Below, piece by piece: positions 1,863-44,536 of a stretch of DNA of 52,222 nt; position 1 is the stretch's first letter, and each line of letters opens with the position of its first letter. The position numbers and the translations under genes were made by a program. The stretch covers positions 1 through 52,222 of the forward strand of contig NZ_JAJJZG010000020.1 of the NCBI RefSeq assembly GCF_021028995.1, given 5' to 3'. The notes under the pieces were generated by a model. The model had not been told where the DNA came from. It did no database searches and saw nothing but the letters and a program-made list of their open reading frames with translations. Source of the stretch: Halobacterium sp. KA-4 (GTDB lineage: Archaea; Halobacteriota; Halobacteria; Halobacteriales; Halobacteriaceae).

Positions 1863-2566
1863 TGTATCGGAGAAGGGTGTCAACCTTAGCGTGAAGGAGG
1901 CGGCCGAGCAAGGGTAAGTTGGGTGTTGAGCAATGCTCGACCGCATGGTTGAGAAGGCTCGCCAGCAGGAAGTATTTTCCCGCGAGGACACGCCGACAGA
2001 GCGGCGTGTCCTCGCGGCGTTTTTGTACCATGCTGGCCTCTCATACCGGCGAATCGAACCGTTCGTTGATCGCTCGTATGAGGCAATCAGACAGTGGTTT
2101 CATCGGTTAAAGCACCTCTTCGAGCCCGACTGCCGGGATCGACAAGAAGTCGCCGTCGATGAGACGAAAATCGAGATCGACGGCACCGAGCACTACGTCT
2201 GGGCGGCAGTCGATTGTGACACTCTCGAAGTGCTTGCCGTTGAGGTCTCTCCCGGTCGATCGAGCCTCGATGCGCTCCTGTTTTTGAAGAATGTTCTCGA
2301 ACGGTGCCGCGGTCGCCCGGTGGTGCGGGCCGACCGCGGCCCGTGGTATGACTGGCCGCTTGAACTCTTAGACTGCGAGTACGAGCGTGAAACGTGGGGA
2401 AATCGGTCGCTTATCGAAGCGTGGTTCGGGATCTTCAAATACCGAACCAGACGTTTCTACCACCGATTTCCCATCCACAGCACCGCCAACTCCACCAGAT
2501 CGTGGCTGACAGCCTTCGCCGCCCTCCACAATGCTACGCTCTAACCTTGACACCTTTGTATCGGAG
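1863..2566 (+). mobile_element. IS6-type insertion sequence with flanking direct repeat
   Basis: The 10-bp direct repeat TGTATCGGAG occurs at 1863-1872 and 2557-2566. IS6 elements normally make 8-bp duplications, so the two extra bases may be chance. Between the repeats lie imperfect inverted ends, GGTGTCAA followed by a TTAG (about 1876-1889), and the same on the opposite strand (about 2542-2554). The single transposase gene fills the element. The intact repeat pair implies a simple, fairly recent insertion with no later rearrangement. Confidence 0.7.
1933..2544 (+). CDS. IS6-family DDE transposase
   Basis: This 203-residue transposase is of the length usual for haloarchaeal IS6 members. 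A helix-turn-helix-like N-terminus (LSYRRIEPFVDRSYEAIRQW) precedes the catalytic triad: Asp in VAVDETKIEID, Asp in VVRADRGPWYD and Glu in SLIEAWFGIFKYRTRRF. The domain looks full length, so the element may be active. The gene contains a perfect 16-bp inverted repeat (CCGCGAGGACACGCCG at 1980-1995 against 2002-2017, 6-nt loop) and a 10-bp one (2306-2315/2331-2340). These are unusual for a protein-coding sequence. Confidence 0.85.
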   Translation: MLDRMVEKARQQEVFSREDTPTERRVLAAFLYHAGLSYRRIEPFVDRSYEAIRQWFHRLKHLFEPDCRDRQEVAVDETKIEIDGTEHYVWAAVDCDTLEVLAVEVSPGRSSLDALLFLKNVLERCRGRPVVRADRGPWYDWPLELLDCEYERETWGNRSLIEAWFGIFKYRTRRFYHRFPIHSTANSTRSWLTAFAALHNATL

Positions 2567-5030: not shown

Positions 5031-5467
5031 AAATAGATTAGATAGAAGAATGGAACGTAGGGTTAGGAAACGAACTCTAACATCGACTGAAGATCATACC
5101 CCATAGCAGTCAGTTGTACTTACACCCGTCGTTGGACTCCCCTTTGTCGCAGTTTCTTGGATGGACTAAACCCTCACAGAACTATTTGCTATCTCCTCGG
5201 AGTAGACAAATACAACAATCCGGAAAGAGACGAAGTCAGAATCCGATGCCAGCTGGCTACGCAGAATCTGGATCCGTATTCAGTACCCACCCGACTCGGT
5301 CATCCTCTGGATAACACAGAGGCGAGAAATCAGCAAAAGGGGAAGACAGGCAACTAGCTCTCATCCTCTTCGTATAGACAGTCACCCGCAGTTACATAAT
5401 GGGTCAGAACTCAACTATACGGTTAAAATAGTAGCCTGGACAGATCCAAGATGGGTTTTGAATGGGA
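5031..5467. other. Intergenic region without a convincing gene
   Basis: This stretch lies between the iteron array and the mcrB promoter. A 66-codon plus-strand frame at 5157-5357 exists but has no promoter, no recognisable motif and competes with other frames. I see no inverted repeat above chance. It may be degenerate sequence. Confidence 0.4.
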
Positions 5468-5475
5468 TTTTATAT
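5468..5475 (+). promoter_or_regulatory. TATA box of the mcrBC-like operon
   Basis: TTTATATA is centred about 28 bp before the ATG at 5500. This marks a leaderless start and rules out the in-frame upstream start at 5458, which would precede the TATA element. Confidence 0.65.
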
Positions 5476-5499
5476 ACTGCGGACTACCTGTATTCGATA

Positions 5500-6729
5500 A
5501 TGAGTGACTCGTCGGACGACTATACACTTGAAGATGCGAAAGACGAAGTCGGAATTCTTCGCCGTGTAACCGACGACGTCGTCGAAGCAATCCGGAATGC
5601 AGAGAGCGAAGACGTACTGGAGTTTTTGATCGAGGACGAGAAACTCGACGTAGTCCACGACGGCGAACGTGGTCTGGGCCGGGTTCGGCGTGCTGTACTT
5701 GAGTCACCGCTGGCTTCAGACCGCCTCAAGCGCATCGTGAGTCTCCGCGGTGACGAAACGCCCGAAGAGATACTCGTTCCGAAAGATGTCGAACGCAACG
5801 CCAAAGTCGCGCTTGAAGCCGGGAAGCCCGTCGTCCTGTACGGACCGACCGGAACAGGGAAGACGACCTTTGCTAAGCAGCTCGCCCGTGAGACCGGCAT
5901 CGGGTACGCACTCAACACTGCGACTCCCTCGTGGACGCCGTCGGACATCATCGGCGGGATCAGTCCGGATTACACTGGCGACTCGCTAAGCTACCGGACG
6001 AAACTCGGCTGCGTGTCCGAAGCCGTTCAGCGTGCCCGCCGATTCGACGTCGAGTACGGCGTCATCCTCGACGAGATCACGCGAGCCGACATCTCGAAGA
6101 TCTTCGGCCCACTGTACACCGCCATCGAAAATCCCCATCAGACCATCTTCGAGACCGACGAGGGGGAGACCATCGAACTGGACGAGCGGGTGAACATCAT
6201 CTGTACGATGAACATGTCCGACCGGACGGTGAACGAACTCGACAACGCGATCACCCGCCGGTTCGCCATGATTGAGCTGGACGAGTACGAGGAGGACAAG
6301 CGCCGACAGCTGTTCAAAGACTGGATCACCACGCACGTCACCGACCACACGGACCTCGGAGAAAGCGAGATCCTCCGGCTGTTCGAGCGGGATTACCAAG
6401 GGATCAACCACGGTCACGAATCGACGTCACAAGGGTCGATCATGCGCTTCGGCCCGATGCATTATCGCGACGTCGCCGTCTTCCTTGGCGTCGGCTGTCG
6501 AGAAGGCGGAGAGTACGAGTATGACCAGAAAGATGCGGTCGGACAGGCGTTCCGGACGTACATCGTTCCGCGACTCCTGAACGCCGCCGCATTTCCGCAG
6601 ATCGAGCGAATCGCGGAACACTACCGCGCGATGAACGGCGAGTTCGAGGAGTTCGATCTAGCCCCCGCAGCTGAGCTCGCCGAACGGGAACTCGAACAGG
6701 AACGTCGCCAGATGGGCTCCTACGAGTAA
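5500..6729 (+). CDS. McrB-like AAA+ ATPase
   Basis: This 409-residue protein has Walker A GPTGTGKTTFAKQL (about 113-126), a Walker B/arm segment VILDEITRADISKIFGPLY and the McrB-type MNMSDRTVNELDNAITRRF with sensor and arginine finger. McrB normally binds modified DNA through an N-terminal domain and uses GTP to power cleavage by McrC. Here the first ~85 residues are a short helical region with no recognisable modified-base reader, so target specificity is unknown. It is followed by the McrC-like gene with a 1-nt TAATG overlap. A general MoxR-type ATPase is less likely because of the McrC neighbour. Confidence 0.8.
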   Translation: MSDSSDDYTLEDAKDEVGILRRVTDDVVEAIRNAESEDVLEFLIEDEKLDVVHDGERGLGRVRRAVLESPLASDRLKRIVSLRGDETPEEILVPKDVERNAKVALEAGKPVVLYGPTGTGKTTFAKQLARETGIGYALNTATPSWTPSDIIGGISPDYTGDSLSYRTKLGCVSEAVQRARRFDVEYGVILDEITRADISKIFGPLYTAIENPHQTIFETDEGETIELDERVNIICTMNMSDRTVNELDNAITRRFAMIELDEYEEDKRRQLFKDWITTHVTDHTDLGESEILRLFERDYQGINHGHESTSQGSIMRFGPMHYRDVAVFLGVGCREGGEYEYDQKDAVGQAFRTYIVPRLLNAAAFPQIERIAEHYRAMNGEFEEFDLAPAAELAERELEQERRQMGSYE

Positions 6730-8489
6730 TGAGCACCGTTGACGAAGTTTACGAGTACGGGCAGGACACCTTCAACGTCCCCGAACGCGGGGAGATCCGG
6801 ATAGAGGGCTGTCCGTCGTCCATCGGGGACCAGCTTCGTCGCGCATCTTTCACACAGCAGAGTCCCGGCGTCTTCACGAAGAGTCAAGCAGCACTCGACG
6901 GCGAGCAGGAGTACGAAGTCGTCACAGTTACCGTAGACGGCGACGAGAACGAGGTACTCCACGTCGAAGCGACGGACATCATCGGCGTCGTGAGCCTCAC
7001 ACCGTCGTCGAAGGTCCAGGTCGATCCGAAGATCGACTGGGAGCACATCTTCGATATGTTGCTGGCGGTCTACGACCAGAACCGTTCAATCGAATACCAC
7101 GGGATCCCGCTGCAGGACTTCCTCTCCGACGACATCCATCTCGACGATGTCTTCGTTGTGCTGGCGATCAACTACCTCGATGGGTTAGAGACGATCCACC
7201 GGCAGGGGTACATCCGCGACTTGGTTATCCGACGGCTCGACAGTCTGGACGGTCGGGGAGAGATCGACGTTGAACAGACGCTTATGAACCACGCGCGGGG
7301 GACGCTGGAGCCACACTGGATACGCAACGAGACCGAGTACGACAACGCCGCGAACTCGCTGCTTCACTACGCGGGGAAGACGCTACTTCGGCTCTTTCGA
7401 CAGAACTCTCACGAGAACGACCATCCTGCGTACGACCGTATCTTCTCAGAGGTTCACCGAGAGGTGGAGCGCCTGGAGAGTATGGGTGTTAACAGCGGGT
7501 TAGATCGGATGGACGCGTATCGACGTCTCTCGCTTAGCGACCTTCCGAAGCAGCGACGGTACTACCAGAAGGCGTTCGACGTCGCCAAGGCAGTGATGTC
7601 ATCGTCACTCGGCCAGCAACTCCGAGACGGCCCGCGAGAACTGGTCGTGGACTACGTTTTGAATATGGAGTCGCTGTTCGAGCAGTACTCCCAGGTCGTC
7701 ATTGAGCGGGAGCTCTCGTATATCAAGTCCTACGACCACCTCGGCGGCCTCGACGACGTGACGCCCGTCCGGTCACCCTCCGTGAATCCGTTCGAGGGAG
7801 AGGGTCAGATCTACCACGAACCGGACCACGCGCTACAGGAGGGCGACCAGACACTAGCTGTACTGGACTCGAAATACTACGCAGAAGGCCACGACCCGGT
7901 GAAGGAGTCTCCATCCCGATCTCGGTTGTTCAGCTACGCCTACCTTCTCCACGCTGACCGGCTTGCATTCCTGTGCCCGCTACTCGAACCGAAGCGTCGT
8001 CGAGTCGCCCAGACCGGAGCCGAACTGCAGATCGTCTCACCCGAGCAGTCGTTCACTCTAGATGGATACGGCGACGTCGTCCACAACTACCTACACGACG
8101 TCCTCGTCGAGAAATCTGCTGAACTCGAAGCCTTCCGAGCTGTCGCAGAGAATCGCCTGTGCCTCGACGGTGTCGAAGAGACTGCCCTGAGCGAAGCGAC
8201 ATCGATGAGCGGTCCGTTTACGTTCAAAGATACTCGAGATTTCTCGCTTCGCGTCCTCAAGGCCGCTGCCGACGAACACTCGTGGGAAGTTCGCAATCGG
8301 TACGACCTAGAGCAAGACGGTGACTGGACGCGAGAACAGATCGAGACGCGCTGTGAACAGCGCTACGAGCATACGACGACGTGCGTACCGGTGTTCTGTC
8401 GCGAGCACGGGCAGGAGTGGATCGACCTCTACTTCCTCCAGAACGGATCCGATGAAGTGGAGAAAGAAGGACCGCTGAAACTGCTCTAG
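6729..8489 (+). CDS. McrC-like nuclease subunit
   Basis: This 586-residue protein has an N-terminal McrC-type region followed by a PD-(D/E)xK nuclease core. The core shows HEPDHAL (about residues 365-371), the D-x-K of LAVLDSKYYAEG (about 379-390) and a downstream helix. It would be the DNA-cutting partner of the McrB-like ATPase in a type IV-like restriction system against modified DNA. The final ~100 residues (from about 485) extend beyond a usual McrC of roughly 350-450 residues and may be an extra specificity domain. The start overlaps the mcrB stop, so the genes are coupled. Confidence 0.8.
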   Translation: MSTVDEVYEYGQDTFNVPERGEIRIEGCPSSIGDQLRRASFTQQSPGVFTKSQAALDGEQEYEVVTVTVDGDENEVLHVEATDIIGVVSLTPSSKVQVDPKIDWEHIFDMLLAVYDQNRSIEYHGIPLQDFLSDDIHLDDVFVVLAINYLDGLETIHRQGYIRDLVIRRLDSLDGRGEIDVEQTLMNHARGTLEPHWIRNETEYDNAANSLLHYAGKTLLRLFRQNSHENDHPAYDRIFSEVHREVERLESMGVNSGLDRMDAYRRLSLSDLPKQRRYYQKAFDVAKAVMSSSLGQQLRDGPRELVVDYVLNMESLFEQYSQVVIERELSYIKSYDHLGGLDDVTPVRSPSVNPFEGEGQIYHEPDHALQEGDQTLAVLDSKYYAEGHDPVKESPSRSRLFSYAYLLHADRLAFLCPLLEPKRRRVAQTGAELQIVSPEQSFTLDGYGDVVHNYLHDVLVEKSAELEAFRAVAENRLCLDGVEETALSEATSMSGPFTFKDTRDFSLRVLKAAADEHSWEVRNRYDLEQDGDWTREQIETRCEQRYEHTTTCVPVFCREHGQEWIDLYFLQNGSDEVEKEGPLKLL

Positions 8490-14964: not shown

Positions 14965-17628
14965 TCAGTAACTCGTGATATCCCGGTCTCCGAGCACCCG
15001 CGTGTACGTGTCGTCACCGGTCACGTCGGCGAGCCGTCCCGCGAGTTCGCGCAGGTCATCATCGACGTCCCACTTCTCGACGTAGTTCTGGACCGCCTGG
15101 CCCTTCTCGTAGCGGTAGCGGAGGAACTGGAGCTTATCGAGATTCGAGAGGTGGTCGCCGCCGTCGCCGTTGACGCGTTCCTGGATGTACGCCTGGCGCT
15201 TCTCGTTGTCCCACGTGCCGAGTTCGAAGCCGTCGTCCTGATTGTACAGGCGCGTCTCCTTGAGGTCCTCCGGTGTGGCATTCGTCCCGCGGCAGAGCTT
15301 GTTGACGTCGTCGTAGGAGACGTCGGGCGTGTCGAGCAAGTCGATGAACACGTCTTCAACGCCGATATCGCTGGCCTCTTGGATGATGCCGTATATCTCT
15401 TGGACGACTTCCTTGGCGGACATGATCTCGCCGTCGCGCTGCACCTTCCCGTGGTGCTTGGAGTACTCACGGAAACACGCGCCCATCTCCATCACGCCAA
15501 TGTCGCCACGGGAGAGGTCACGGTTCTCTTCGAGTTGGATACGGGTACGGCGGGCCGTACGGTAGATGTCGCGGCGGAGGGAGTTCCACGAGGCTGGCTC
15601 GGTGTCGTCGATGGGTCGGGCGACGACGGTGATGTCGAATGAGACTGCTTCACCCGTGATGAATTTATTAGAGTCTGCACTAATTGGATACGTCGCTGTA
15701 ACCTCGAATCCGTTAGCACATAGCGAGGCAAGCAATTCGCCCCACGACTCTGAGTCAGAGTGGTGGTAAGTGAATGCTAGCACCCCATCGTCTTTTAACG
15801 CCCGTCGGATTACAGCGAAGGCTTGCCCAATCTCAGTTTCGAAGTCCTCGGCAGTCTTGTCCAGATACGGGTTAGTTACGATTGACTCGGCACGAGGCGT
15901 CTGGTCTTGATCGAACCCAGGGTATTCATCTTCAAGCAAAATCTTCTGCCAGACGTAAAAATAGTCTGAGACCTCCGAGTAGATGATATTGTCGTAGTAT
16001 GGTGGGTCAGTAATTACTGCGTCAAATTCGTCCTCGAAATCGAGGTTCCGCATATCGCCTTGATAAAGAGTGGACTCCTCACCAATTGGCTGTGCGAACT
16101 TTCCCGTCTCTTGAGTTTCCCCATCTTCGATGAATCGTTCTGTCGGAGAAGCCCCATACTCAACTCCTCTCAACACTTTATCGACAGAGTTTGAGAACGT
16201 ACCTCGGCCTGCTGAAGCACCCCAGACGTTATTTTCGATGGCTTCTGAAGTCGGCACGAACGAATTCATTCGAAAAACGCCCTCAATCTTGTTCGCAGGT
16301 TGGTTGTAGATACAGAACATGTTTTGGAACATAAGTGAGTCTGTTAGAGCCAAGAGAAGGTAGTCCCGCAGTGAAGGGTCTATATCTTCGATAGACCGCA
16401 TAATCTTCGCAACCGAGAGTAGCTGGCGCTCGTTGTGCATATCGGTCCAGTACTCGTATCCGTGGTCAAAGACATCATTTCCAGCCAGTTCAGATGACGC
16501 AGTAATCGCTCCTTCTGGGATTTTTTCGCCAGGAACGTACTCATGGAGGTCGTCGCTACTTTCCCACTCTTCGATTGCTTCGTCCAGAAGATCGATATCT
16601 GCCTCTTCAACACGTTTGTATCCTTTATACTCACTTCGCTCTTCACCGGCGGTCTCACAGTGTTCGCAGAAGTATTCGACCGCGTACAGACGGAGGTCTG
16701 GTGAACCCTGTTCTTGGATGGCATCCGTGATTGCGTACTTCTGTCCACAGTCAGGGCAGTTGTACTTCCCTCCTCGAGATACATTCCCGTTCTTCGGAAT
16801 GAAACTATGGCCACAAGCATCGCAAAGGCTCTCTGACTGCCAGTCGTCCACGAGAGTCACCGCCCCACAGCCCGGGCACAGAACGTTGTATTTGTCATCA
16901 TTCTCGTAGCGTCCCTTCGCCACGCGATAGTCCTTGAATAGTGGAACCGTGTGCCCGCATGAAACGCAGTCCAATTCTTTCACCCAGAAATTGTACATCA
17001 CGTCGGCGTCGTGGTCGCCGTTCGGGCAGGGCGTTTTGTAGTACTCCGTGATCTCGTCCGCGACGTCCTCCTTCACCTGCTCGAATGCTTCCTCAAGCTC
17101 TTCGACGTCGGTTTGGCCAGCTTCGAGTTCTTTCTTCGTGACGAACCACGCGACAGGGTTCAGGTCATTGCCGACGACTTCAGCGCCGAAGCGCGACGCC
17201 TCAACGAGCGACGTGCCGCCACCCATGAATGGGTCGAGAATCTTCTTGTCCTCGACGCGGACATCCTTGGGGTAGAGCTCCCAGAGGCTCTCAGGGTCTG
17301 CCATATCAACGCGGTCAAGGATGGAAGCGATATCTAACTCACTGGAACCTTCGTCATTCCAGTTCGCAAGCGTCTCTCCGTTATTACCTGGCTCAAACAC
17401 ATCCACTGTATCTGGATCGTGAAGAAGAGAGTAGAGCGAGATTGCACGGAAAACACACCCCAGGCGACGGGCCCACCACTTGTGCATTGTGTAAATAGGA
17501 CGGTAGTACATCTTCGCTCGCCCCTCTCGTTCCGCCAACTCGTTCACGCGCTCGATGGGGAACCCGCGTTCGATGGGGAGTTCCGTCCGCTCCTGCCGAC
17601 CCTGTGAAGATCCAGATTGCTCAGACAT
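14965..17628 (-). CDS. DUF1156 DNA methyltransferase (anti-phage-associated)
   Basis: This 887-residue protein starts with the DUF1156 region, including YTMHKWWARRLG near residue 50. An AdoMet motif I, DPFMGGGTSLVEASRFG (about 135-150), follows, then several zinc-knuckle pairs in the middle (CVSCGH, CPGCGA, CDACGH, CPDCGQ). The catalytic TDPPYYDNIIYSEVSDYFYV (about 540-560) identifies an N6-adenine or N4-cytosine amino-methyltransferase. DUF1156 enzymes are annotated as anti-phage-associated and occur with DUF499 ATPases and helicases, as here. It probably marks host DNA as self. The zinc-rich insert may read the target. Confidence 0.8.
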   Translation of the reverse strand: MSEQSGSSQGRQERTELPIERGFPIERVNELAEREGRAKMYYRPIYTMHKWWARRLGCVFRAISLYSLLHDPDTVDVFEPGNNGETLANWNDEGSSELDIASILDRVDMADPESLWELYPKDVRVEDKKILDPFMGGGTSLVEASRFGAEVVGNDLNPVAWFVTKKELEAGQTDVEELEEAFEQVKEDVADEITEYYKTPCPNGDHDADVMYNFWVKELDCVSCGHTVPLFKDYRVAKGRYENDDKYNVLCPGCGAVTLVDDWQSESLCDACGHSFIPKNGNVSRGGKYNCPDCGQKYAITDAIQEQGSPDLRLYAVEYFCEHCETAGEERSEYKGYKRVEEADIDLLDEAIEEWESSDDLHEYVPGEKIPEGAITASSELAGNDVFDHGYEYWTDMHNERQLLSVAKIMRSIEDIDPSLRDYLLLALTDSLMFQNMFCIYNQPANKIEGVFRMNSFVPTSEAIENNVWGASAGRGTFSNSVDKVLRGVEYGASPTERFIEDGETQETGKFAQPIGEESTLYQGDMRNLDFEDEFDAVITDPPYYDNIIYSEVSDYFYVWQKILLEDEYPGFDQDQTPRAESIVTNPYLDKTAEDFETEIGQAFAVIRRALKDDGVLAFTYHHSDSESWGELLASLCANGFEVTATYPISADSNKFITGEAVSFDITVVARPIDDTEPASWNSLRRDIYRTARRTRIQLEENRDLSRGDIGVMEMGACFREYSKHHGKVQRDGEIMSAKEVVQEIYGIIQEASDIGVEDVFIDLLDTPDVSYDDVNKLCRGTNATPEDLKETRLYNQDDGFELGTWDNEKRQAYIQERVNGDGGDHLSNLDKLQFLRYRYEKGQAVQNYVEKWDVDDDLRELAGRLADVTGDDTYTRVLGDRDITSY

Positions 17629-17781: not shown

Positions 17782-18663
17782 ATGCCGTCACACACGAGTG
17801 GGACGCAACTCATTTTCTTTCTGTATCTTCTCGTGCCAGGTTATTTCGCATTTCGAACATATCTCTGGGCCAATATTGCGCTTGATGAAACCTCGAGGCT
17901 TACCAAAATCGTCCATATGTCTATGGGCGGGTTCGGGTCACTTGCGGTAGTTGCCGTTATTCGGAACTTGGGGTTGCTACACTTCGATTTTATTCCCCTT
18001 TGGCTCGCCGTTAATGAGCCGATCACATTTGAAGGAGTTTCAACTCTTACTGTTGCAGAAGCAACCAATCTGATCGTAATGCAATCATTCGTAGCAGTCT
18101 TGGGTGGAATCCTAGTAGGAAGTCTTCGTATCATCGTGTGGGAGGGGGAAACGAAGGAACGTAAGAATCTAAACAACCCTTGGGAAGAGTTCGAATATCA
18201 GGCTACGTACGATGGCACAGTGACTGTCCTCACGGAGAATGACGAGCAAATAACCGGCCAGCTACTCGAAGTTGGTAACTCTAGTACCGAAAACGACATA
18301 TTGCTAACGGAGCCCCGGGAGTCTCAGTTTTTTAATGGTGAGTTGGAGGAGGGAGAATCAAGAGGAAAGATCTCATACCACCATCAGCGCGACATCTCTC
18401 GCGTAATCCTGCATAGTGAATGGGAAGGTCACGAACGTGGCAGTATTGAACGATATCACCGTGACCTCCTGAACTCTGGATTAAAAACCCGGAGCTGGAT
18501 ACTCAGGAGATTCCAATGGGTTCAGTCCACCGTTAGTGGATTCAAAGAAGCAATATCTTCGGTATTACACAATGATGAGCAGCAAGACGGGTTAGATATC
18601 GAAGATGAGGTCTCACTATCTGATACCTCTGACGGAGAGAGCAGAGAAAGTGGCGATGAATAG
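17782..18663 (+). CDS. DUF6338-like membrane protein
   Basis: This 293-residue protein has N-terminal hydrophobic segments (about 9-25, 47-62 and 93-117, including GTQLIFFLYLLVPGYFAF and FVAVLGGILVGSLRIIVW). A P-W-E-E-F motif follows, then a soluble small-beta domain (TYDGTVTVLTENDEQITGQL). This fits the DUF6338 family as I remember it, which is frequent near defence genes and has no assigned function. The acidic tail is probably disordered. The IS1595 element was inserted exactly at its stop codon (18661-18663), leaving the protein intact. It is divergent from the methyltransferase gene. Confidence 0.55.
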   Translation: MPSHTSGTQLIFFLYLLVPGYFAFRTYLWANIALDETSRLTKIVHMSMGGFGSLAVVAVIRNLGLLHFDFIPLWLAVNEPITFEGVSTLTVAEATNLIVMQSFVAVLGGILVGSLRIIVWEGETKERKNLNNPWEEFEYQATYDGTVTVLTENDEQITGQLLEVGNSSTENDILLTEPRESQFFNGELEEGESRGKISYHHQRDISRVILHSEWEGHERGSIERYHRDLLNSGLKTRSWILRRFQWVQSTVSGFKEAISSVLHNDEQQDGLDIEDEVSLSDTSDGESRESGDE

Positions 18664-19677
18664 ACTAATCGCTCTTATGAAGCAGGTTGTTGGTCGAGGA
18701 GAGCTGTCGCTGTGAAAGCGTAGCGGGCAAGGGTGACGCGAACGCGTCACCCGATATGTTCCCATTTGAACTGCTACGCTCGGAGGCGAGCGCCGCGAAC
18801 CTGCTGGAGCAGGTTCGCTGGCGCGATGGCCTCCAGTGCCCGCACTGCCGGTCTGAATCAGTGATCAAACACGGCAGCTATCGAGAGTATCAGCGGTACC
18901 TCTGTAAGGATTGTGACCGCACGTTCAACGACAAGACCGGCACGATCTTCGCACACGCGAAGATTGGCCTTGACAAGCTCCTGTTCGCGTTCTACTCGTT
19001 CGTTCGGTTCAACACGAGTATCCACCAGTTAGACGCTGAAATCGACGTTTCCTACCGGTCGCTGCATCGGCGCGTCGAGCAGTTCGCCAGAACGCTCGAC
19101 GCGCCAGCCGTCTCCCTCGTTGGCCCGGTCGAGATTGACGAGTTCTATGTCTCTGCTGGGAAGAAAGGCCGCGAGCGCGACCAACCGTCGCGCTCGCGTG
19201 GCCTTTCGAAACGTGGGCGAGGAACGTACGCCAAGGACAAACCGCCAGTATTCACGCTCGTTGATCGCGGCAACGGTCAGCGATACACCGTGCCAGCGAA
19301 ATCCGCCGACGAAACGACCGTGCGACTCCTTCTCGAAAACAACGAGAAGGAGTCGCTGACTGTCTATACCGACGGATTTCGGGCCTACGACCCGCTAGAA
19401 GACGATGAGAACTTCCACCGGGAATCAGTGATTCACGGCGACGGTGAGTACGTCGATGGAGACGCGCACGTGAACACCTGCGAGAGCCACGCGTCGCTGG
19501 CGCGACGGTGGCTCTCGCCGCATCGAGGCGTCTCAAAAGACAACCTGACAGCGTATCTCAGACCGTTCCACCTCCGACGACGAATCCTCCGAAAACCCGG
19601 CCGAGAAGCACTCAAGGAGATCGTTCAAGCAGTTCTCTGACTCACCAACAATGTGCTTCACAAGAGCGTAGACTAAT
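18661..19677 (+). mobile_element. IS1595-type insertion sequence with 9-bp target duplication
   Basis: The direct repeat TAGACTAAT is at 18661-18669 and 19669-19677. The element between (18670-19668, 999 bp) ends in inverted repeats CGCTCTTATGAAGCAGGTTG and, on the other strand, CGCTCTTGTGAAGCACATTG. It carries one intact transposase. The duplicated target contains the stop codon of the DUF6338-like gene on the left copy and the stop of the YwgA-like gene on the right copy, so neither neighbour lost codons. Confidence 0.85.
18756..19640 (+). CDS. IS1595-family transposase
   Basis: This 294-residue protein has an N-terminal zinc ribbon (CPHC, about residue 28, and CKDC, about 52). The catalytic residues are Asp in VEIDEFYVSAGKK, Asp in TVYTDGFRAYDP and the third acid in HVNTCESHASL, followed by a conserved RGVSKDNLTAYLRPFHLRRR tail. 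This is the domain order of IS1595 transposases. The start at 18756 lies just after a perfect 10-bp hairpin (18731-18740/18743-18752) that could limit translation. At least six further long inverted repeats lie inside the coding sequence, including a perfect 14-bp stem at 19322-19335/19343-19356. Confidence 0.85.
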   Translation: MFPFELLRSEASAANLLEQVRWRDGLQCPHCRSESVIKHGSYREYQRYLCKDCDRTFNDKTGTIFAHAKIGLDKLLFAFYSFVRFNTSIHQLDAEIDVSYRSLHRRVEQFARTLDAPAVSLVGPVEIDEFYVSAGKKGRERDQPSRSRGLSKRGRGTYAKDKPPVFTLVDRGNGQRYTVPAKSADETTVRLLLENNEKESLTVYTDGFRAYDPLEDDENFHRESVIHGDGEYVDGDAHVNTCESHASLARRWLSPHRGVSKDNLTAYLRPFHLRRRILRKPGREALKEIVQAVL

Positions 19678-20134
19678 ATTGGTATACGCTATTTTCGGTG
19701 TACTCAGAGTGCCTGTCATAGACTCGTTCAATTAAATCCCGTAATGACAGGTGGCCATATTCGTTAGCAATGGCCTCGGCAGCGTTAAAGATGACATCAA
19801 TGTCTCCACCTCGGCTCGTAAGTTGCTCTACCGCTTTTCTCCCAGAATCTTCCAGTACGTAATCATATCGCGTATTCCCCCCGACCGTTTTTTCAGTCGA
19901 AATCTTCACCAGACCTTTTTCCTCCAAGTCCTCAATATCCTCCAGTAGCGATTTAGAGAACGGGCCGTAGTCGTACTTTCGGTAGGTATAGGCGTCAAAC
20001 TGGTCTCCGAGCTCTTCTTCATCGAGTAAGAAGGCAAGCTTTTGAAGGCGGGTTTTTCCCTGGATTTCACCATCCATAGCGTCCAGTAACGCTAACGGAA
20101 CCAAGCTCTCGCGGTCGATTGTGATGGATCCCAT
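19673..20134 (-). CDS. YwgA/Panacea-like protein, copy 2
   Basis: This 153-residue protein is homologous to the product of 12090-12542. Shared landmarks are LVPLALLDAMDG at the start, GKTRLQKLAFLLDEEELG, YDYGPFSKSLLEDIEDLE, HLSLRDLIERVY and the C-terminal YTENSVYQY. A TATA-like ATATGAATA sits about 27 bp upstream of the ATG at 20134, so it has its own promoter. It lies between the DUF6338-like gene (convergent) and the DUF499 ATPase gene (same strand). An antitoxin-like or regulatory role is possible from the family, but no partner toxin is identified. Confidence 0.55.
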   Translation of the reverse strand: MGSITIDRESLVPLALLDAMDGEIQGKTRLQKLAFLLDEEELGDQFDAYTYRKYDYGPFSKSLLEDIEDLEEKGLVKISTEKTVGGNTRYDYVLEDSGRKAVEQLTSRGGDIDVIFNAAEAIANEYGHLSLRDLIERVYDRHSEYTENSVYQY

Positions 20135-20250: not shown

Positions 20251-23200
20251 CTACTTCTGGAAGCTGATCTCGATCTTCAGGCTCGACGCCTCTTCCGGCA
20301 TCCGCTCGAAGAGGTCCTGCACCTTCGTGTAGTCCTGTTCGGACCGCAACGTCAAGCTGACCTGCGTCCGCTCGACGTCGGCGGTCCCCTGAAGAGCACC
20401 GGGAACACCCTCCCTGTCGGGCAGCATGAAGGTGACGTCGCCGTACTCAACGCTCCCCGTCTGGTGGTTGTTCCGCCACTTGCTCCGCATCGCGGCGACG
20501 TCGTCGCCGTTGTACTCGAAGCGCCACGTATCAGCCTCTGTATCAGCCTTCCGGAACGGATAGCCGGGCACCCAGTCGGTGGCCTTGTCCGACCCGGTTG
20601 TGTTGACCACGTACTCCGGTTCCTCGTCCTTCCCGATGTTCTCCAGCAGGAACGTCCGCACCATATACTCGGTGACGCTGTCGTCGAAGCGGTCGGTGAC
20701 CTTGTTGACCGTGAACTGGTCACCCGGCTCCAAGTCCTCGATGTACGCCAGAATCTGGTCACCGATTCGGTCGGATACCGTCGGGACAATCTTGACGGTG
20801 GTCGGCTCGCGATCGCCGAGCGATCCGAGATACCGACCGCCGGCCTCCAGCACGTAGTCGTCGACGAGGAACTCGTTGACCGCCTCACGAGCAACCGATT
20901 CGGTCTCGTCCGGCGGCAGGAACACCGCTTCGTCCGACCGAACCTCTCCGATGATCGTGTCGAGATTCGCGTACCCGTCGTCGTTGATATGCTCCTCGAT
21001 ACGGTCCACAAGGGACGACGCACCGACAACCTTCGCACCGCCGACGTCACGGAGCGTCGCGTCGGATTGTGGCTTGTCGAGGATCTCGTTCCCTTTTACG
21101 ATGACGTACTGGTCCTCACGGGCGAGCCGGCCGATAGCCCGCATCACAACGTCGTGGCTGTCGCCGTCGATCCAGATCTCGCCGTCCTCAACGAGCTCCA
21201 GTTCGAAGTCGCCGATGTCGAGCGCAGTCGTCCCGCTCCCGAAGCGCTGGCGGAGCTCCTGCTCGGCGTCATCGACCCCCCACACGTCCACGTCATCCTG
21301 CTGAACGAGCACGGTGTCCAGCGAGCTTCCGGAAAGGTCGTCACGGAACCCACCAGTATCACGGGCGAGTACCGGCTTGCCGTCGAGCGCTTCGACGGTT
21401 GCGTTCAACACATCGTTGGCACTGCCGGGAATCGGGAGTTCCGGGTCACGGTGGAACTGCTCGTAGATGTCCTCGACCGAGATTTCCCCACGTCGATCCA
21501 GAAGGTCCTCGGCGATGTCCCAGACGTGCGACTGGAGGTCGAACGGGTCAGCTGCCGCAGAGTCCGCAATGTTCGAGGCGTCGAGTTCCGCCTCGTCGAG
21601 GACGAAGACATCGAGATCCATCGGCTCCACTTTCGCCCACTCGTCATCGTCCATCAGATTGTCGCCGTCGATCACATCGCCGTACAGGAGTTGAAGCTCT
21701 TCACGGAGCTCGTTCTCCTCCTGCTCCATCATACTACGAATCGAGGTGCGGATTTCGTCATCGAGTGACTCGTCCGCGAGTACCTGTCGCGCACCCTCAA
21801 TGTACCGCGCCTTGTCGATGTACCGTGTGCCGGACTCGATGGCCTTGTCCCCCGAGGGCTGGACGAAGACGAGTGTGTTGCGCCACTCGCGTCCGCGACC
21901 GTCGTTCGTGATGACCTTCTTCACCTCGTCCTGGGTCCACTGGCCGTCCTTCACGACGACCTTCACCTCACGGTCGTCCGGAATGTCCCGCATATCGTTC
22001 GTCCGGAACCCGACCGGGTGCGCATTCGAGCCGAAGATATCCGTGATGAAGTCCGCAATCTCGGCCTTCGCCGACGTCTCCGACACATCCACAGCTGCGT
22101 TCCGGATGAGTGCGTTCGGGTTCTGCCGGTCACGAATGGCGTACTTCCCGTTCAGCTTGTGGAGGTGCCATGCAACGCCGTGCAATCGTTCGAGGTTGAG
22201 GACGACGTCGGAGACGAGGTCACCTGTCTGGTAGGCACCCATCACGATCTCCGACACCTCCGCACCCTCGCCTTCACTCGGCTTCAACGAGTAGAGGAGA
22301 ATCGTGTTCAGGATGCGACGACCGTGGGGCACTTCATCCGTGTCAACACGACTTTTGATGTCACCGGTAGCGGCGTTCAGTCGTTCGTAGTTGATCTTCG
22401 CCAGTTCGTCCTCAAACTCGATGGCGTCGATGTCGCCGTGTGTGATCAGGTCCGTCTGATCCTGCATCTGCAAGAGAACCTTCGAGAAGAGGTAGATCAT
22501 CCCGCGCGTGTTCTGGTTGCCCTCATCGGCGTAGTAGCGTGTCTCAAGGGCATCCAGAAGCACAGGGTGGAACGGATAGAGATCGTGCATCTCCGACAGC
22601 AAGTCGTCGGGGAGATCGACGTGCCCGTCAGCTTGATCGTATGCGTCGAAGTACCCGTTGACGATCTCGCGGGCCGCACTCTCGTTTACGGAGTCGATCA
22701 GGCGGTGGCGCAGGACCTCGCGCTTGTCCACCTGGTTGTTCATATTGACCTCAACTGCCTGTTCGCGGTTCAGGATATCGTGGACTTCGGAGCCCTCCCG
22801 GAGCACCGAGACGATCGTGTAGAGTTCGAGATCCGAGAGCGCGGTCGATTCGAGCAGTGACTGGAGGAATGCCTTGTTTGCGCTCTTTCGATCACCCTGA
22901 AGCGTATCGAACCAGTCCTCCAATTCGTCCACGAAGAATGCGACAGTGGTGTCGCCGACGGCCTCCTGAATCGTCTGCATATCGGGATAGCCACCCGACT
23001 CGAACGTCCCAGGATCGTAATCAAGCGCCTCGAAGAACGGTTCCCAGAGGTACTCGTACTGTTCGTTCTGCATCGCAACCGTGATCGGCGTCGCCGACTC
23101 TGGAAGCGAAGCGTCGAACCCTTCAACCGAATCACTTGCCCACGCACCCGCGGCATCGGGATCATCGAAACAGTGGTACAGTGCCACCATCTGGTGAGAC

Positions 23201-23466
23201 TTCCCACTACCGTACGGGCCATAGAGGATGTGCGTGCCTCGCGGGTCGTCCCCAGTCAAGGAATCACGAAGAATCGAGAGGGCCTCTCGAAGGCCCTGAG
23301 TCATCAGCGTCCGTTCGAAAAAGAGTGCTGCGTCAGACTCGAACTCGTCGTCGTCGTCAACATTGTAGAGTTTTACCTGCCCATCGATCTGTCCTTCTTC
23401 CCGAAGCTCGCGGCTGAGGGTCACCGTGTCTTCGAGCGTATTTGGTAAGGATCCCGTCTGTGCCAT
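20251..23466 (-). CDS. DUF499 ATPase (anti-phage-associated)
   Basis: This 1071-residue P-loop ATPase has Walker A LYGPYGSGKSHQMVALYHCF (about 80-100) and Walker B TTVAFFVDELEDWFDTLQGD (about 170-190). The long C-terminal part is mostly alpha/beta with repeated winged-helix-like segments. DUF499 proteins are annotated as anti-phage-associated and accompany DUF1156 methyltransferases and helicases. The architecture resembles the PglY/BrxC type of ATPase. The start at 23466 (MAQTGSLPNTLEDT) is preferred over the frame start at 23499. The gene is on the same strand as the small gene at 23522-24094, 55 bp downstream of it. Confidence 0.8.
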   Translation of the reverse strand: MAQTGSLPNTLEDTVTLSRELREEGQIDGQVKLYNVDDDDEFESDAALFFERTLMTQGLREALSILRDSLTGDDPRGTHILYGPYGSGKSHQMVALYHCFDDPDAAGAWASDSVEGFDASLPESATPITVAMQNEQYEYLWEPFFEALDYDPGTFESGGYPDMQTIQEAVGDTTVAFFVDELEDWFDTLQGDRKSANKAFLQSLLESTALSDLELYTIVSVLREGSEVHDILNREQAVEVNMNNQVDKREVLRHRLIDSVNESAAREIVNGYFDAYDQADGHVDLPDDLLSEMHDLYPFHPVLLDALETRYYADEGNQNTRGMIYLFSKVLLQMQDQTDLITHGDIDAIEFEDELAKINYERLNAATGDIKSRVDTDEVPHGRRILNTILLYSLKPSEGEGAEVSEIVMGAYQTGDLVSDVVLNLERLHGVAWHLHKLNGKYAIRDRQNPNALIRNAAVDVSETSAKAEIADFITDIFGSNAHPVGFRTNDMRDIPDDREVKVVVKDGQWTQDEVKKVITNDGRGREWRNTLVFVQPSGDKAIESGTRYIDKARYIEGARQVLADESLDDEIRTSIRSMMEQEENELREELQLLYGDVIDGDNLMDDDEWAKVEPMDLDVFVLDEAELDASNIADSAAADPFDLQSHVWDIAEDLLDRRGEISVEDIYEQFHRDPELPIPGSANDVLNATVEALDGKPVLARDTGGFRDDLSGSSLDTVLVQQDDVDVWGVDDAEQELRQRFGSGTTALDIGDFELELVEDGEIWIDGDSHDVVMRAIGRLAREDQYVIVKGNEILDKPQSDATLRDVGGAKVVGASSLVDRIEEHINDDGYANLDTIIGEVRSDEAVFLPPDETESVAREAVNEFLVDDYVLEAGGRYLGSLGDREPTTVKIVPTVSDRIGDQILAYIEDLEPGDQFTVNKVTDRFDDSVTEYMVRTFLLENIGKDEEPEYVVNTTGSDKATDWVPGYPFRKADTEADTWRFEYNGDDVAAMRSKWRNNHQTGSVEYGDVTFMLPDREGVPGALQGTADVERTQVSLTLRSEQDYTKVQDLFERMPEEASSLKIEISFQK

Positions 23467-23521
23467 CTTGATACTTAAACAAACCTCAGTGGCACCCAAT
23501 AAACACTATGGTCCCGCGAAT

Positions 23522-27474: not shown

Positions 27475-27691
27475 GCATGCATGGCACCAGACAAGTAACA
27501 AGCACCCTCAATTCATCTCGGTCGGTGCTGAGTGCGCGGATGTTCTTCTCTGCTCTGAGGAATCCGTTGCCGCCGAACAACTTGGCCCCGAACGAATTCC
27601 GGATATGTCGAAGGAGATATCTGGATTTGCGGTACGACTACTCGAGAATGCTGGCTTCCGAACGCTGTTCTTGACTAATCAGCGCGACTAG
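27475..27691 (+). pseudogene. Possible gene remnant before the AddA-like gene
   Basis: After a stop near 27472, one plus-strand frame runs open to TAG at 27691 with coding-like composition (SVGAECADVLLCSEESVAAE then MSKEISGFAVRLLENAGF). It lacks an obvious start and overlaps the convergent AddA-like gene by about 50 bp. It may be the decayed end of an unknown gene. The rest of 27160-27637 holds only the 34-residue frame. Confidence 0.25.
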
Positions 27692-30499
27692 GTCCGCTTT
27701 CGAGAGTGGATCAATATCAACACGGACCCCTTGTGCAGTATAGAAGATCTCTGCGGTCACCTCTCGACCAGAGAACCATTCATTCAGCACGTGATAGTAC
27801 ACGCTGAGTTGCTTCCGATACTCCCCCTCGGCGTGCCGCCCGAGGTCGGTTTTGAAGTCGATGATCTCGACGGTATCGGGACGAATGTGAACGAGGTCGA
27901 TGATTCCAGAGATGGTGACCTGCTCGCCGTCGACAGTGAGTGGCAGATACGCATCCACCTCAACTCGTAGCTCACCATCGAGCGAGTCTATGAGCGACTT
28001 GAGGTGACGCTCGTCGTCGTTCGAGGGTTCGACGTCTCCTTCCAGTACGTACCGCTCAGCAAACTCGTGGGTCTGCGTTCCGAACGCTGTCCCTCTCCCG
28101 TCATCAACATCCTCGAACACATCGTCACGCATCAGCGTATGTGGCGAGTGACCGACTGGACCATCCGGCGTCGGGACAGCAATCTGCAAGTGTGCCTGCG
28201 TCGTCTCGTCGATGTCGTCTTCCTGAATGTCGGGCTCCAGTTCCTCGATGTCGACCGGGAGCTCTTCAATGAACGTGTTCGGGCTCTCGCCTGCAGCGAA
28301 CACGAGATGGCTCTCAGCTCGCGTCATCGCGACGTAGAGCAAGCGTCGTTCTTCGTCGTATCCACGCGGCAGGCACTTTCGAAGGACATCGGCCCGCCAG
28401 TTGTCGTGGATGTGAGGATACCCATGATCGTCGGCGTAGAGTTTCCGCTGGCGTAGTCCAATCGGATCGGCGAACGTGATCGCGTTACTGTTCCCGCCTG
28501 ACGGCGGGAAGCAATGGGAGTTCATGTTCGCGAGCACGACAATGGGATGCTCGAGTCCCTTGGCCGCGTGGATGGTCTGGACCGTCACCGAATTCATACC
28601 GGCGCTCGCGTGGACTTCATGGGTGCTTCCGTCCTCGATGCCGCGTTCGATGAATCGGATGAGGTCACCTCGTGTCAATGTCGTCGCGCTGTGGACGGAC
28701 TGAATCGTCGTCAGCAGCACGTCGGCATACGCCCCGACGTAGTCGTACTGGGAGAACACGCGCTGGACAACCCCACCGACCGTCTCCAGTGACGCAAGCT
28801 CCGACTTGAACGCCTGCATATTGGTGGGATACTCCTCACTATCGAGGATGTGTTTGACCTCGTCGAGCGTGTAGCCAGCTTCCTCAAGCACGACTGCCCA
28901 TCCTCGCTCCGCGTCGGATTCGAGAATTCGCAACCACGCCAAGAGAAGCTTCGCCGGGTCAGACCGGAACAACTCGATGCCTCCTTCGTATGCCATCGGC
29001 AACCCATACGCTTCGGCGACAGAGAGGAGTTCTCGGCCGAAGTCACGAGTCCGGGTGAGGACGGCGATGTCACCGTACTCTGGCAAACGAAGTTCCCCAT
29101 CCTCCTCAACCTGATACGCGTCGTTCCCGACGATCTCCTGAATCTTGGTCAGAACGGCTTCGTGTTCGTCTTCGTGTCGAATCGCCTCTATCTGGGAGTT
29201 CTCGTGCGAGGCGTTCGAGGAGAGCGAAACGATGCGGTCTCGGACGGCCGTCTCGTCGACGTCGTCCGTGCTCGCCGCGGGCGTCACCAGACTGTGCTCG
29301 GAGAAGTCGAGAATGTCCTGCGTCGACCGGTAGTTCTCGACTAGCTCAATATCGATGATCGGGCGGGTCGCCCACGACACTCGTTCGTGGTCCTCGTTGA
29401 GCTCGTCGACGAACCGATCCAGGCGGGACTCGAACTCGGTGATGTTCTCGACGGCCGCGTACTGGAACGAGTAGATGCTCTGTTTCCAGTCGCCGACGAC
29501 ACAGACGTTGTTCGTGTCCGCGAGCAAGAGAGCGAGTTTGAACTGGATCTCGCTGGAGTCCTGGAACTCGTCGATCATCACGTACTCGAACGCGACGTCG
29601 TCGCGGAGTCGGTGGTCGTCACAGAGCAGGACGAACGCAAATAGCTGGAGAAAGCTGAAGTTGAGGTAGTTCCGACTGAGCGCGAACGCAAGGTACTCGT
29701 GGTAGACGTCGTGAACGAAGTTCTTGAGGGCCTCTCGCTGTTCGTCAAACACCAGCTGTGCGACGCCATCAGGAACCTGCTTCTCACCCCATCCGCCACG
29801 GATCTCGTCCTCCTTGGGCGCGTCTGGGAGATAGCACTTGTCGTCCCCGTAGCCGCCGAGTTTCGAGCGAAGCTTCGACTGCTTGTTCCCGTCGTTTCGG
29901 GGCTGGTTCAGTTCGTCGAAGATCTCGCGGAACGCCTCGAAATCACCGTCCAGGTGCCGCTCGCCGTTCCGGTACCAGCCATCGGCCGTCGGGAAGACAC
30001 CTTTCGCCGCGAGCTGATTGATTAACCCGAGGAGTTCGACTGGTTCCTCGATAGCGCGGAAGAAGTCGTCGTACTCGGGATGGTCGTCGCTGAACCGACG
30101 GATGAACTCGCGGAATTGCGCCTTCTCGACGTTCTCGTCTTCGAGGACACGTGTGGACCCCGTGATGCGGTCGTCGATGCCGAGGAGCGTCGGTGCCTCG
30201 AAGCCGTGTTCCATGAGGATGTCGTGACAGAGGCTGTGGAACGTCTGGATCGGTGCGTCCGAGAGTTCACGCATCCCGTAGTCACAGTGGGCGACGATTC
30301 GGTCCTTCATCTCCGTCGCCGCGTTGTTGGTAAACGTCACGAGGAGGACGTCCTCAGGTTCGACGTCGTCTTGGTCGACGATTTCGGCGTAGCGACGGGT
30401 GACGGTGAACGTCTTTCCAGTCCCTGCGCCGGCGTCGACAACGTGGATGCCCTGTTTGCTGTCGATGAGGTCTTGCTGTTGGTCGTTTGGTGCAGTCAT
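27638..30499 (-). CDS. AddA/RecB-like UvrD helicase-nuclease
   Basis: This 953-residue superfamily 1 helicase has Walker A VVDAGAGTGKTFTVTRRY (about 19-36), motif II YVMIDEFQDSSEIQF, motif V VTVQTIHAAKGLEHPIVVL and motif VI ERRLLYVAMTRAESH. The C-terminal RecB-type nuclease core shows ISGIIDLVHIRPDT and EIIDFKTDLGRHAEGEY. It overlaps the AddB-like gene by 4 nt (ATGA). Together the two should process DNA ends like AddAB. Location in a defence island rather than with housekeeping repair genes suggests a role in degrading invading DNA. Haloarchaea do not use RecBCD for general repair as far as I know. Confidence 0.8.
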   Translation of the reverse strand: MTAPNDQQQDLIDSKQGIHVVDAGAGTGKTFTVTRRYAEIVDQDDVEPEDVLLVTFTNNAATEMKDRIVAHCDYGMRELSDAPIQTFHSLCHDILMEHGFEAPTLLGIDDRITGSTRVLEDENVEKAQFREFIRRFSDDHPEYDDFFRAIEEPVELLGLINQLAAKGVFPTADGWYRNGERHLDGDFEAFREIFDELNQPRNDGNKQSKLRSKLGGYGDDKCYLPDAPKEDEIRGGWGEKQVPDGVAQLVFDEQREALKNFVHDVYHEYLAFALSRNYLNFSFLQLFAFVLLCDDHRLRDDVAFEYVMIDEFQDSSEIQFKLALLLADTNNVCVVGDWKQSIYSFQYAAVENITEFESRLDRFVDELNEDHERVSWATRPIIDIELVENYRSTQDILDFSEHSLVTPAASTDDVDETAVRDRIVSLSSNASHENSQIEAIRHEDEHEAVLTKIQEIVGNDAYQVEEDGELRLPEYGDIAVLTRTRDFGRELLSVAEAYGLPMAYEGGIELFRSDPAKLLLAWLRILESDAERGWAVVLEEAGYTLDEVKHILDSEEYPTNMQAFKSELASLETVGGVVQRVFSQYDYVGAYADVLLTTIQSVHSATTLTRGDLIRFIERGIEDGSTHEVHASAGMNSVTVQTIHAAKGLEHPIVVLANMNSHCFPPSGGNSNAITFADPIGLRQRKLYADDHGYPHIHDNWRADVLRKCLPRGYDEERRLLYVAMTRAESHLVFAAGESPNTFIEELPVDIEELEPDIQEDDIDETTQAHLQIAVPTPDGPVGHSPHTLMRDDVFEDVDDGRGTAFGTQTHEFAERYVLEGDVEPSNDDERHLKSLIDSLDGELRVEVDAYLPLTVDGEQVTISGIIDLVHIRPDTVEIIDFKTDLGRHAEGEYRKQLSVYYHVLNEWFSGREVTAEIFYTAQGVRVDIDPLSKADLVALISQEQRSEASILE

Positions 30500-43624: not shown

Positions 43625-44536
43625 ATGACCGAGACACCTCGTGGATGGGGCGTCACACCATCGACTGGCATCCCCACGATCGCCTTCGGCAACCAGAAAG
43701 GCGGGACAGGAAAGACAACGGCGACGATCAACAGTGCCGCGGCGCTGGCCACTCGCGACCACGATGTTCTTGCAATCGATATGGACCCACAGGCCGACAT
43801 GACGAAAGGGCTTGGACTGGGTCCGGGCGACGACAACGATCCATCAAGCCCGAAGAACGAACTCCCCAACACACTAGTCACCGATGACGAGAACCTACTC
43901 GACGTACTCGTCGACAATCCGCGCACGCACGATACTAGTCTTTCAGAAATCGTGATCGAAGCCGATGAGTACGACCATCTGAACTTCGACTTGATTCCCA
44001 GTCACAAGGACATGGGCCTTGCTCGAGATTGGATGGACGATGCGAATGCTCGTCTCTCGCTGAAACTCGCCCTCGAAGAGATGGTTGACGACGGATACAA
44101 CTACGATTTTATCGTAGTCGATTGCCCTCCCGACCTCTCAGTCCTGACGGACGCGGCCTTCATCGCGGCTCAGAACGTCTTCCTGGCTGCACAGACCCAA
44201 GCAACATCACGGGATGCACTTGACGATCTGTGGGACCAGCTGGAGTCCATCGAGGACAACCAGCAGATTGAGATCGCAATCGTTGGACTCCTGGCGAACA
44301 TGTACCGGGACGACGGTCAGTCGCAAAAGTTCCTCAACTCCTTCGACGAGTCCTTCGCATCGATGGCACCGATTTTCAAACTCCCGATGCGAGTAGCAAT
44401 CCAGCGTGCGTGGGACAACGGACGAGATATTTTCGGATGGGAAGACGCGAACGACCAGCAAGTAGAGCGCGACCTCTTCCTGGAGGTTGCGGAGACGATG
44501 GAACGAGCGTTTGACAAAACGCAGGTGGAGGCGTAA
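43625..44536 (+). CDS. parA: ParA-family partition ATPase (module 2)
   Basis: This 303-residue protein has the deviant Walker A NQKGGTGKTTATINSAAALA (about 23-42), Walker A' LAIDMDPQADMTKGLG and Walker B FIVVDCPPDLSVLTDA. This is a classical ParA/Soj plasmid-partition ATPase. Its promoter lies within the last iterons (TTTATG at about 43595-43600), so binding of the partner should repress it. The small partner gene starts 2 nt after its stop. It differs from the ParA at 3987 in Walker A sequence and iteron type, so the two systems should be independent. Confidence 0.9.
   Translation: MTETPRGWGVTPSTGIPTIAFGNQKGGTGKTTATINSAAALATRDHDVLAIDMDPQADMTKGLGLGPGDDNDPSSPKNELPNTLVTDDENLLDVLVDNPRTHDTSLSEIVIEADEYDHLNFDLIPSHKDMGLARDWMDDANARLSLKLALEEMVDDGYNYDFIVVDCPPDLSVLTDAAFIAAQNVFLAAQTQATSRDALDDLWDQLESIEDNQQIEIAIVGLLANMYRDDGQSQKFLNSFDESFASMAPIFKLPMRVAIQRAWDNGRDIFGWEDANDQQVERDLFLEVAETMERAFDKTQVEA

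Follow-up and report, generated by a model that had tools for sequence, protein, structure and literature searches.

The window analysed here is a stretch of 52,222 nucleotides from Halobacterium sp. KA-4, and it contains a complete insertion sequence (IS) of 999 bp, the terminal inverted repeats (TIRs) and target duplication of which can be read directly. The TIRs are 25 bp long, imperfect, and begin with CGCTCTT. The sole gene of the element encodes a transposase with an N-terminal zinc ribbon (PF12760, E 1.9e-9) and a DDE_Tnp_IS1595 domain (PF12762, E 1.2e-19). The nearest named relative is ISNph2 from Natronomonas pharaonis (89% DNA identity, 100% coverage), followed by ISHja1 and ISH4 (76% and 73%, both at 100% coverage); homologs cover positions 1-1002 of the query, and four further copies with 67-75% identity are found in the host genome (3.34 Mb). 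By its domains, its full-length named relatives, and its TIRs with their duplication, the element belongs to the ISH4 group of the IS1595 family. This agrees with an earlier, sequence-only reading, which had called it an IS1595-type element and had set its limits correctly at 18670-19668.

18661-18669: target duplication, 9 bp, TAGACTAAT, left copy
18670-19668, plus strand: complete insertion sequence, 999 bp, IS1595 family, ISH4 group
18670-18694, plus strand: left terminal inverted repeat, CGCTCTTATGAAGCAGGTTGTTGGT
18756-19640, plus strand: transposase coding sequence (CDS), 294 amino acids
19644-19668, minus strand: right terminal inverted repeat, reverse complement CGCTCTTGTGAAGCACATTGTTGGT
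19669-19677: target duplication, 9 bp, TAGACTAAT, right copy

The element lies between two convergent genes, a DUF6338-like gene (17782-18663), the TAG stop of which overlaps the left target duplication, and a SocA/Panacea-like gene (19673-20134, minus strand), which ends within the right copy. Because these gene ends fall in the target duplications, the insertion seems harmless to both neighbors. The element is enclosed by a probable defence island. It is flanked by genes at 14965-17628 and 20251-23499 (both minus strand) for a DUF1156/HmaB-like methylase and a DUF499/HmaC-like ATPase (PADLOC), and the same island holds a GajB/UvrD-like helicase gene at 27638-30499 and a pair consisting of an AAA ATPase and an McrBC-like gene at 5458-8489.

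Hairpins of the element and their conservation in the ISH4 group

The sequence-only reading had counted seven stems in the element, most of them within the coding sequence. All seven are present and fold as described, six in the CDS and the first in the leader, where it ends 3 nt ahead of the ATG. One entry required correction: CDS hairpin 4, given as 18 bp at 19164-19206 with a 2-nt bulge, exists and is 19 bp long at 19163-19207.

18731-18752, plus strand: leader hairpin, perfect palindromic arms of 10 bp, folding as 9 bp with a 4-nt loop
18795-18818 (cds 40-63), plus strand: CDS hairpin 1, 11 bp, folding as 10 bp with a tetraloop
18943-18966 (cds 188-211), plus strand: CDS hairpin 2, 8 bp perfect (18945-18964), 10 bp with wobble
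19069-19105 (cds 314-350), plus strand: CDS hairpin 3, 12 bp, 1-nt bulge and 4 bp
19163-19207 (core cds 415-443), plus strand: CDS hairpin 4, 19 bp with a 2-nt bulge
19322-19356 (cds 567-601), plus strand: CDS hairpin 5, 14 bp perfect
19480-19518 (cds 725-763), plus strand: CDS hairpin 6, 11 bp, 1-nt bulge and 6 bp

Folded alone as RNA, each stem reaches -13 to -35 kcal/mol (z -5.3 to -8.5 versus dinucleotide shuffles). The CDS was further compared with 300 synonymous shuffles that preserve the protein and its codon usage. Perfect stems of at least 8 bp sum to 68 bp in the real CDS versus 10.2±8.9 bp in the shuffles (maximum 39), and there are five stems of at least 10 bp versus 0.22. No shuffle matched the CDS in either measure, and the minimum free energy of the whole CDS as RNA has a z of -9.0. 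The stems exceed chance expectation by far, and the comparison with codon-shuffled versions, on which the sequence-only reading had staked its claim, is decided in its favor. Rfam gave no match above the gathering score for 18400-20000, only sub-threshold matches.

Among the 34 window genes tested, only two departed clearly from the rest in stems as well as in folding, and both are transposases: the gene of the IS1595 element (stem z 6.9) and an IS6/IS240-type gene at 1933-2544 (plus strand; TIRs 1873-1896/2534-2557; stem z 5.0), with hairpins at 1980-2017 (perfect, 16 bp) and 2306-2340. A ParA-type gene (43625-44536) had a stem z of 3.6 and no folding signal in this first test, which is scaled differently from later ones. 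It was the second hairpin-rich transposase that prompted the survey across families reported below.

The ISH4-group alignment, which is free of gaps, comprises 88 non-redundant homologs taken from genomes of haloarchaea (mean pairwise DNA identity 78%, minimum 69%). CDS hairpins 3, 4, 5 and 6 are centered on the same codons (cds 332, 429, 584 and 744) in 81, 84, 80 and 85 of the relatives, respectively; further stem centers lie at cds ~106 (66/88) and elsewhere (26-34/88). CDS hairpins 1 and 2 occur as perfect stems of at least 8 bp in 32/88 and 26/88, with 95% and 91% of cells paired, and the core of CDS hairpin 4 is paired in 98.8% of cells. Compensated pairs are seen in CDS hairpin 3 at cds 319/345 (G-C to A-U) and 322/342 (G-C to C-G). 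Four pairs of CDS hairpin 5 have changed on both sides, pair cds 576/592 occurring as U-A, G-C and C-G, and the inner helix of CDS hairpin 6 has a compensated C-G to G-C change in eight sequences (cds 737/752). With the structure held fixed, 94.8% of cells are paired, versus 32-45% when partners are slid by 1-3 columns, and 117 cells have changed on both sides, versus 38±7 in shuffled and 12-30 in slid controls. Where two sequences have the same residue, they share its codon in 87% of cases at third positions of stems and in 62% outside stems (p 8e-13). Outside the CDS, the leader hairpin is present in 87/87 elements of the group and ends 2-9 nt ahead of the ATG; its arms differ widely, yet are fully compensated (GGGTGACGCG/CGCGTCACCC, GGGCACCGC/GCGGTGCCC, GGACACCGC/GCGGTGTCC).

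The earlier proposal that the stems constrain codon choice is thus borne out; a loss of pairing in related copies without compensation, which that reading had named as refuting it, is not what the relatives show. The roles listed there, namely blocking host read-through translation, slowing ribosomes, and recombination or single-strand DNA structures, are candidates taken up below. The element combines two hallmarks of a structured functional RNA, stability beyond codon-preserving shuffles and compensatory substitutions. The named ISH4-group elements ISNph2, ISH4, ISHja1 and ISHti15 share the transposase family and the hairpins; in the open-access full text searched, we found no published description of these elements that reports them.

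Distribution across transposase families and hosts

Annotated CDSs of adequate length in haloarchaeal plasmid stretches were surveyed with the codon-shuffle stem statistic at z > 3. Of 36 DDE/DEDD transposase genes, 31 exceeded this threshold, some being copies of one IS (17/19, 3/5 and 11/12 in the three samples pooled). They represent nine families, namely IS1595, ISH3, IS4 (ISH8), IS5 (ISH11, ISH28 and others), IS66 (ISH10), ISH6, IS630, IS110 and IS6, with about 36-137 bp of perfect stems per gene. None of the 243 other genes in the same stretches did so, which rules out a general property of haloarchaeal genes, and neither did any of five haloarchaeal TnpB-type genes, two of them incomplete. 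The transposases below this threshold were two IS5-type genes at z 2.5-2.8 and those of ISH7A/B (L146:1905-3719 and L147:36883-38697 in our numbering of stretches) and ISNma1 (L190:25244-26074), the ISH7 and ISNma1 genes being free of hairpin excess. The ISH7 and ISNma1 genes indicate that hairpins are not obligatory for haloarchaeal transposases.

Two further families were followed in depth. In ISH3 (30 elements, 82% identity), 12-13 hairpins are conserved, with ~100 stem bp per kb. ISH8 (32 elements, 85% identity) has 8-9 and, in addition, a leader hairpin in 31/32 elements, located ~-45 to -10 upstream of the CDS copies (L228-L257). In several of these copies, the 5´ arm of the leader carries a GGAGG-like Shine-Dalgarno sequence (GAATGAGGAGG) paired with CCTCCTCAT. 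Mean folding z is about -7 to -9 in ISH3, ISH8 and ISH4, and hairpins are spaced at a median of ~130 nt from center to center. Their positions are unlike between families, which implies that they probably had separate origins. No class of tetraloop was prominent among the loops, which are slightly G-richer than background.

Samples outside haloarchaea were small. In Deinococcus, 11/17 transposases had z > 3 (IS630, ISDra1, ISDra7-like IS4 and others), several being copies of one IS, and 0/66 other genes; the hairpin-rich ones of the IS630 and IS4 families reside on plasmids (L152, L188, L261, L197 and L262). In other bacteria, 0/43 IS genes reached z > 3 (E. coli, Marinobacter, Mesorhizobium, Azotobacter, Thermus, Leptolyngbya, Nostoc, Pseudonocardia, Sinorhizobium, Burkholderia, Priestia and Salinibacter), and in non-haloarchaeal Halobacteriota, 1/23 transposases did. 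The latter (L173) is an AT-rich IS4/5-type gene with z 3.1 and four stems of 9-10 bp. The two counts rule out a general property of transposases. Salt is an unlikely cause as well: the extreme halophile Salinibacter was negative (0/4 IS genes with z > 3, one gene a fragment) while Deinococcus was positive, so that neither salt nor GC content alone accounts for the trait.

Selection and strand symmetry

For ISH3, ISH8 and ISH4, substitution rates inside and outside stems were compared on trees made from the sites that lie outside stems. In these groups, third-position transitions are slowed in stems to 0.2-0.5 of their rate elsewhere. Of ~430 stem changes, 24 were double changes from one Watson-Crick pair to another; slid controls gave 17 of ~1960, which makes such changes about six-fold enriched. 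Pairs joining two third codon positions are almost invariant, even though a double synonymous change would be free there. These near-invariant pairs and the slow rates speak for purifying selection on stable G-C stems, and it is well supported that selection acts on the hairpins.

The constraint is nearly strand-symmetric. Changes that create G-U and those that create A-C are equally suppressed in stems (0.21-0.33 of background), distinct versions of the untranslated leader hairpin contain 4 GU versus 9 AC, and the folding excess is alike on sense and antisense strands (−84/−81, −49/−47 and −74/−69 kcal per kb). One measure points the opposite way, with A-C mismatches restored to Watson-Crick pairs at a higher frequency (48/130) than G-U (8/147), a difference that depends on rooting. 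Selection on the sense RNA only is unsupported by the G-U and A-C comparisons and by the equal folding of both strands. The constraint accordingly bears on DNA, on RNA from both strands, or on sense RNA if a G·U pair, too, lacks the strength needed there.

Proposed function, alternatives and relation to known systems

The reading we prefer, and to which we would give close to an even chance, is that the hairpins act as RNA structure restraining transposase expression. Transposase mRNA, whether produced from the IS or by read-through, would fold into very stable hairpins. The leader hairpin of the ISH4 group, and the comparable one in ISH8, would impede initiation, and the CDS hairpins would impede elongation or expose the mRNA to processing, with abundant transcript and almost no transposase as the outcome. 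Such low output may be favorable to IS and host alike, which could have led to convergent evolution in several families. Since both strands are transcribed in haloarchaeal IS, antisense RNA would form the same hairpins, and this could explain the strand symmetry, which otherwise counts against an RNA structure because a purely sense-mRNA function would favor G-U.

We infer restraint at the RNA level for three reasons. The trait tracks the transposase gene rather than the mobile element as such, being absent from the TnpB genes tested, which do not encode transposase. Two families have a hairpin just ahead of the start codon. Finally, data from H. salinarum show abundant mRNA and almost no protein, a 5´ ribosome pile-up, and dense antisense transcription. 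In H. salinarum, only 4 of 33 mobilome proteins could be detected although their mRNA was high, and Ribo-seq reads piled up at the 5´ end of an ISH3-family mRNA (PMC10134880); 58 of 846 antisense RNAs (asRNAs) in this species overlap transposase genes (PMC6523106), and in Hfx. volcanii transposases are enriched among asRNA targets (PMC5892119). The published account explains the missing transposase protein by SmAP1 and antisense RNA rather than hairpins, and the passages found in these papers make no mention of conserved hairpins.

A broader reading is that of a previously undescribed, lineage-wide form of transposon control, to which unrelated IS families have come by convergence, once in haloarchaea and separately in Deinococcus. 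Dense, strand-symmetric hairpin arrays over the transposase CDS would be advantageous there owing to some factor or process that is particular to the hosts. This is a real possibility, if a somewhat doubtful one; the factor would act on structured RNA from both strands or on hairpin DNA.

A function at the DNA level strikes us as rather unlikely, though far from negligible. The palindromes would extrude as single-stranded hairpins or cruciforms and affect how the IS recombines, replicates or binds proteins; in hosts that recombine very actively, they might for instance keep IS copies from recombining ectopically with one another. Strand-symmetric constraint is what selection on DNA instead of one RNA strand should produce, the untranslated leader has hairpins too, and the two kinds of host, haloarchaea and Deinococcus, have polyploidy and proficient recombination in common. 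However, 8-16 bp is a short arm length for a stable cruciform, the few transposases tested from cyanobacteria, also polyploid, were without hairpins, and so are the haloarchaeal TnpB-type IS genes, mobile and repeated as they are, where transposition as a single strand may forbid them.

By analogy with copy-number control in plasmids and IS10, stems and loops might alternatively let antisense RNA find the transposase mRNA, such that structure would be selected in both RNAs. This we consider distinctly unlikely. The model accounts for strand symmetry, but up to 13 hairpins over 1.2 kb far exceed what antisense systems are known to need, and conservation does not evidently peak in the loops. In its favor, asRNAs cover haloarchaeal transposases (PMC6523106, PMC5892119).

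A functionless origin, in which intrastrand template switching perfects imperfect palindromes, has very little left to recommend it. Several of the double changes appear to have been simultaneous, but host genes on the same replicons are clean (0/243), the trait is missing from the other bacteria sampled, and correction alone should leave the divergence of third-position pairs unlowered, whereas these are nearly invariant and stem rates lie several-fold under background. That amino-acid motifs and GC-rich codon usage generate the stems by coincidence is practically out of the question: CDS hairpins 4 and 6 do overlap conserved protein motifs, but bacterial IS1595 transposases of similar GC lack stems, and shuffles that keep protein and codon usage lose them.

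Control of transposase genes by RNA structure at the start site is already known from IS200, ISPpu9 and IS10/IS50. In IS200, the structure works at the start of the gene, whereas the hairpins described here run through the whole CDS in many unrelated DDE/DEDD families; haloarchaeal IS200/605-type elements have TnpB genes without hairpins. IS10 and IS50 are protected from impinging transcription by a leader hairpin, and the leader hairpin at 18731-18752 could likewise occlude the start site in read-through transcripts; theirs is a single structure at the element end, however, without CDS arrays. The IS200 transposase is controlled by mRNA secondary structure, Hfq and antisense RNA (Ellis et al. 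2015, cited in PMC10134880), and in this respect it resembles the restraint by RNA secondary structure proposed here. The ISPpu9 transposase is under the control of a 5´-UTR structure and two small RNAs (PMC8450116), a likeness in the leader structure ahead of the open reading frame; the title and abstract of that paper mention no conserved array of hairpins in the CDS. The sotRNAs or omega RNAs of IS1341-type elements are likewise structured RNAs overlapping a haloarchaeal IS gene, but belong to TnpB genes rather than DDE transposases and derive from the gene end (PMC8303175). Hairpin arrays in the CDS, their conservation across IS families and their restriction to certain hosts were found in no earlier report in open-access full text. 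This suggests that transposase genes are restrained in a way not described before, and there is a substantial chance that the arrays are more than a variant of the known control by RNA structure.

In conclusion, a single trait sets most haloarchaeal transposase genes apart from every other haloarchaeal gene surveyed. It spans families without a common ancestry or transposition mechanism (several DDE families and IS110), which argues for strong common selection on IS elements in haloarchaeal hosts. Hairpin excess can serve as a marker, readable from sequence only, for transposase genes under such a regime, and ISH7A/B and ISNma1 provide natural controls for expression tests. The hairpins are a concrete candidate answer to the puzzle of abundant transposase mRNA and missing protein in haloarchaea (PMC10134880).
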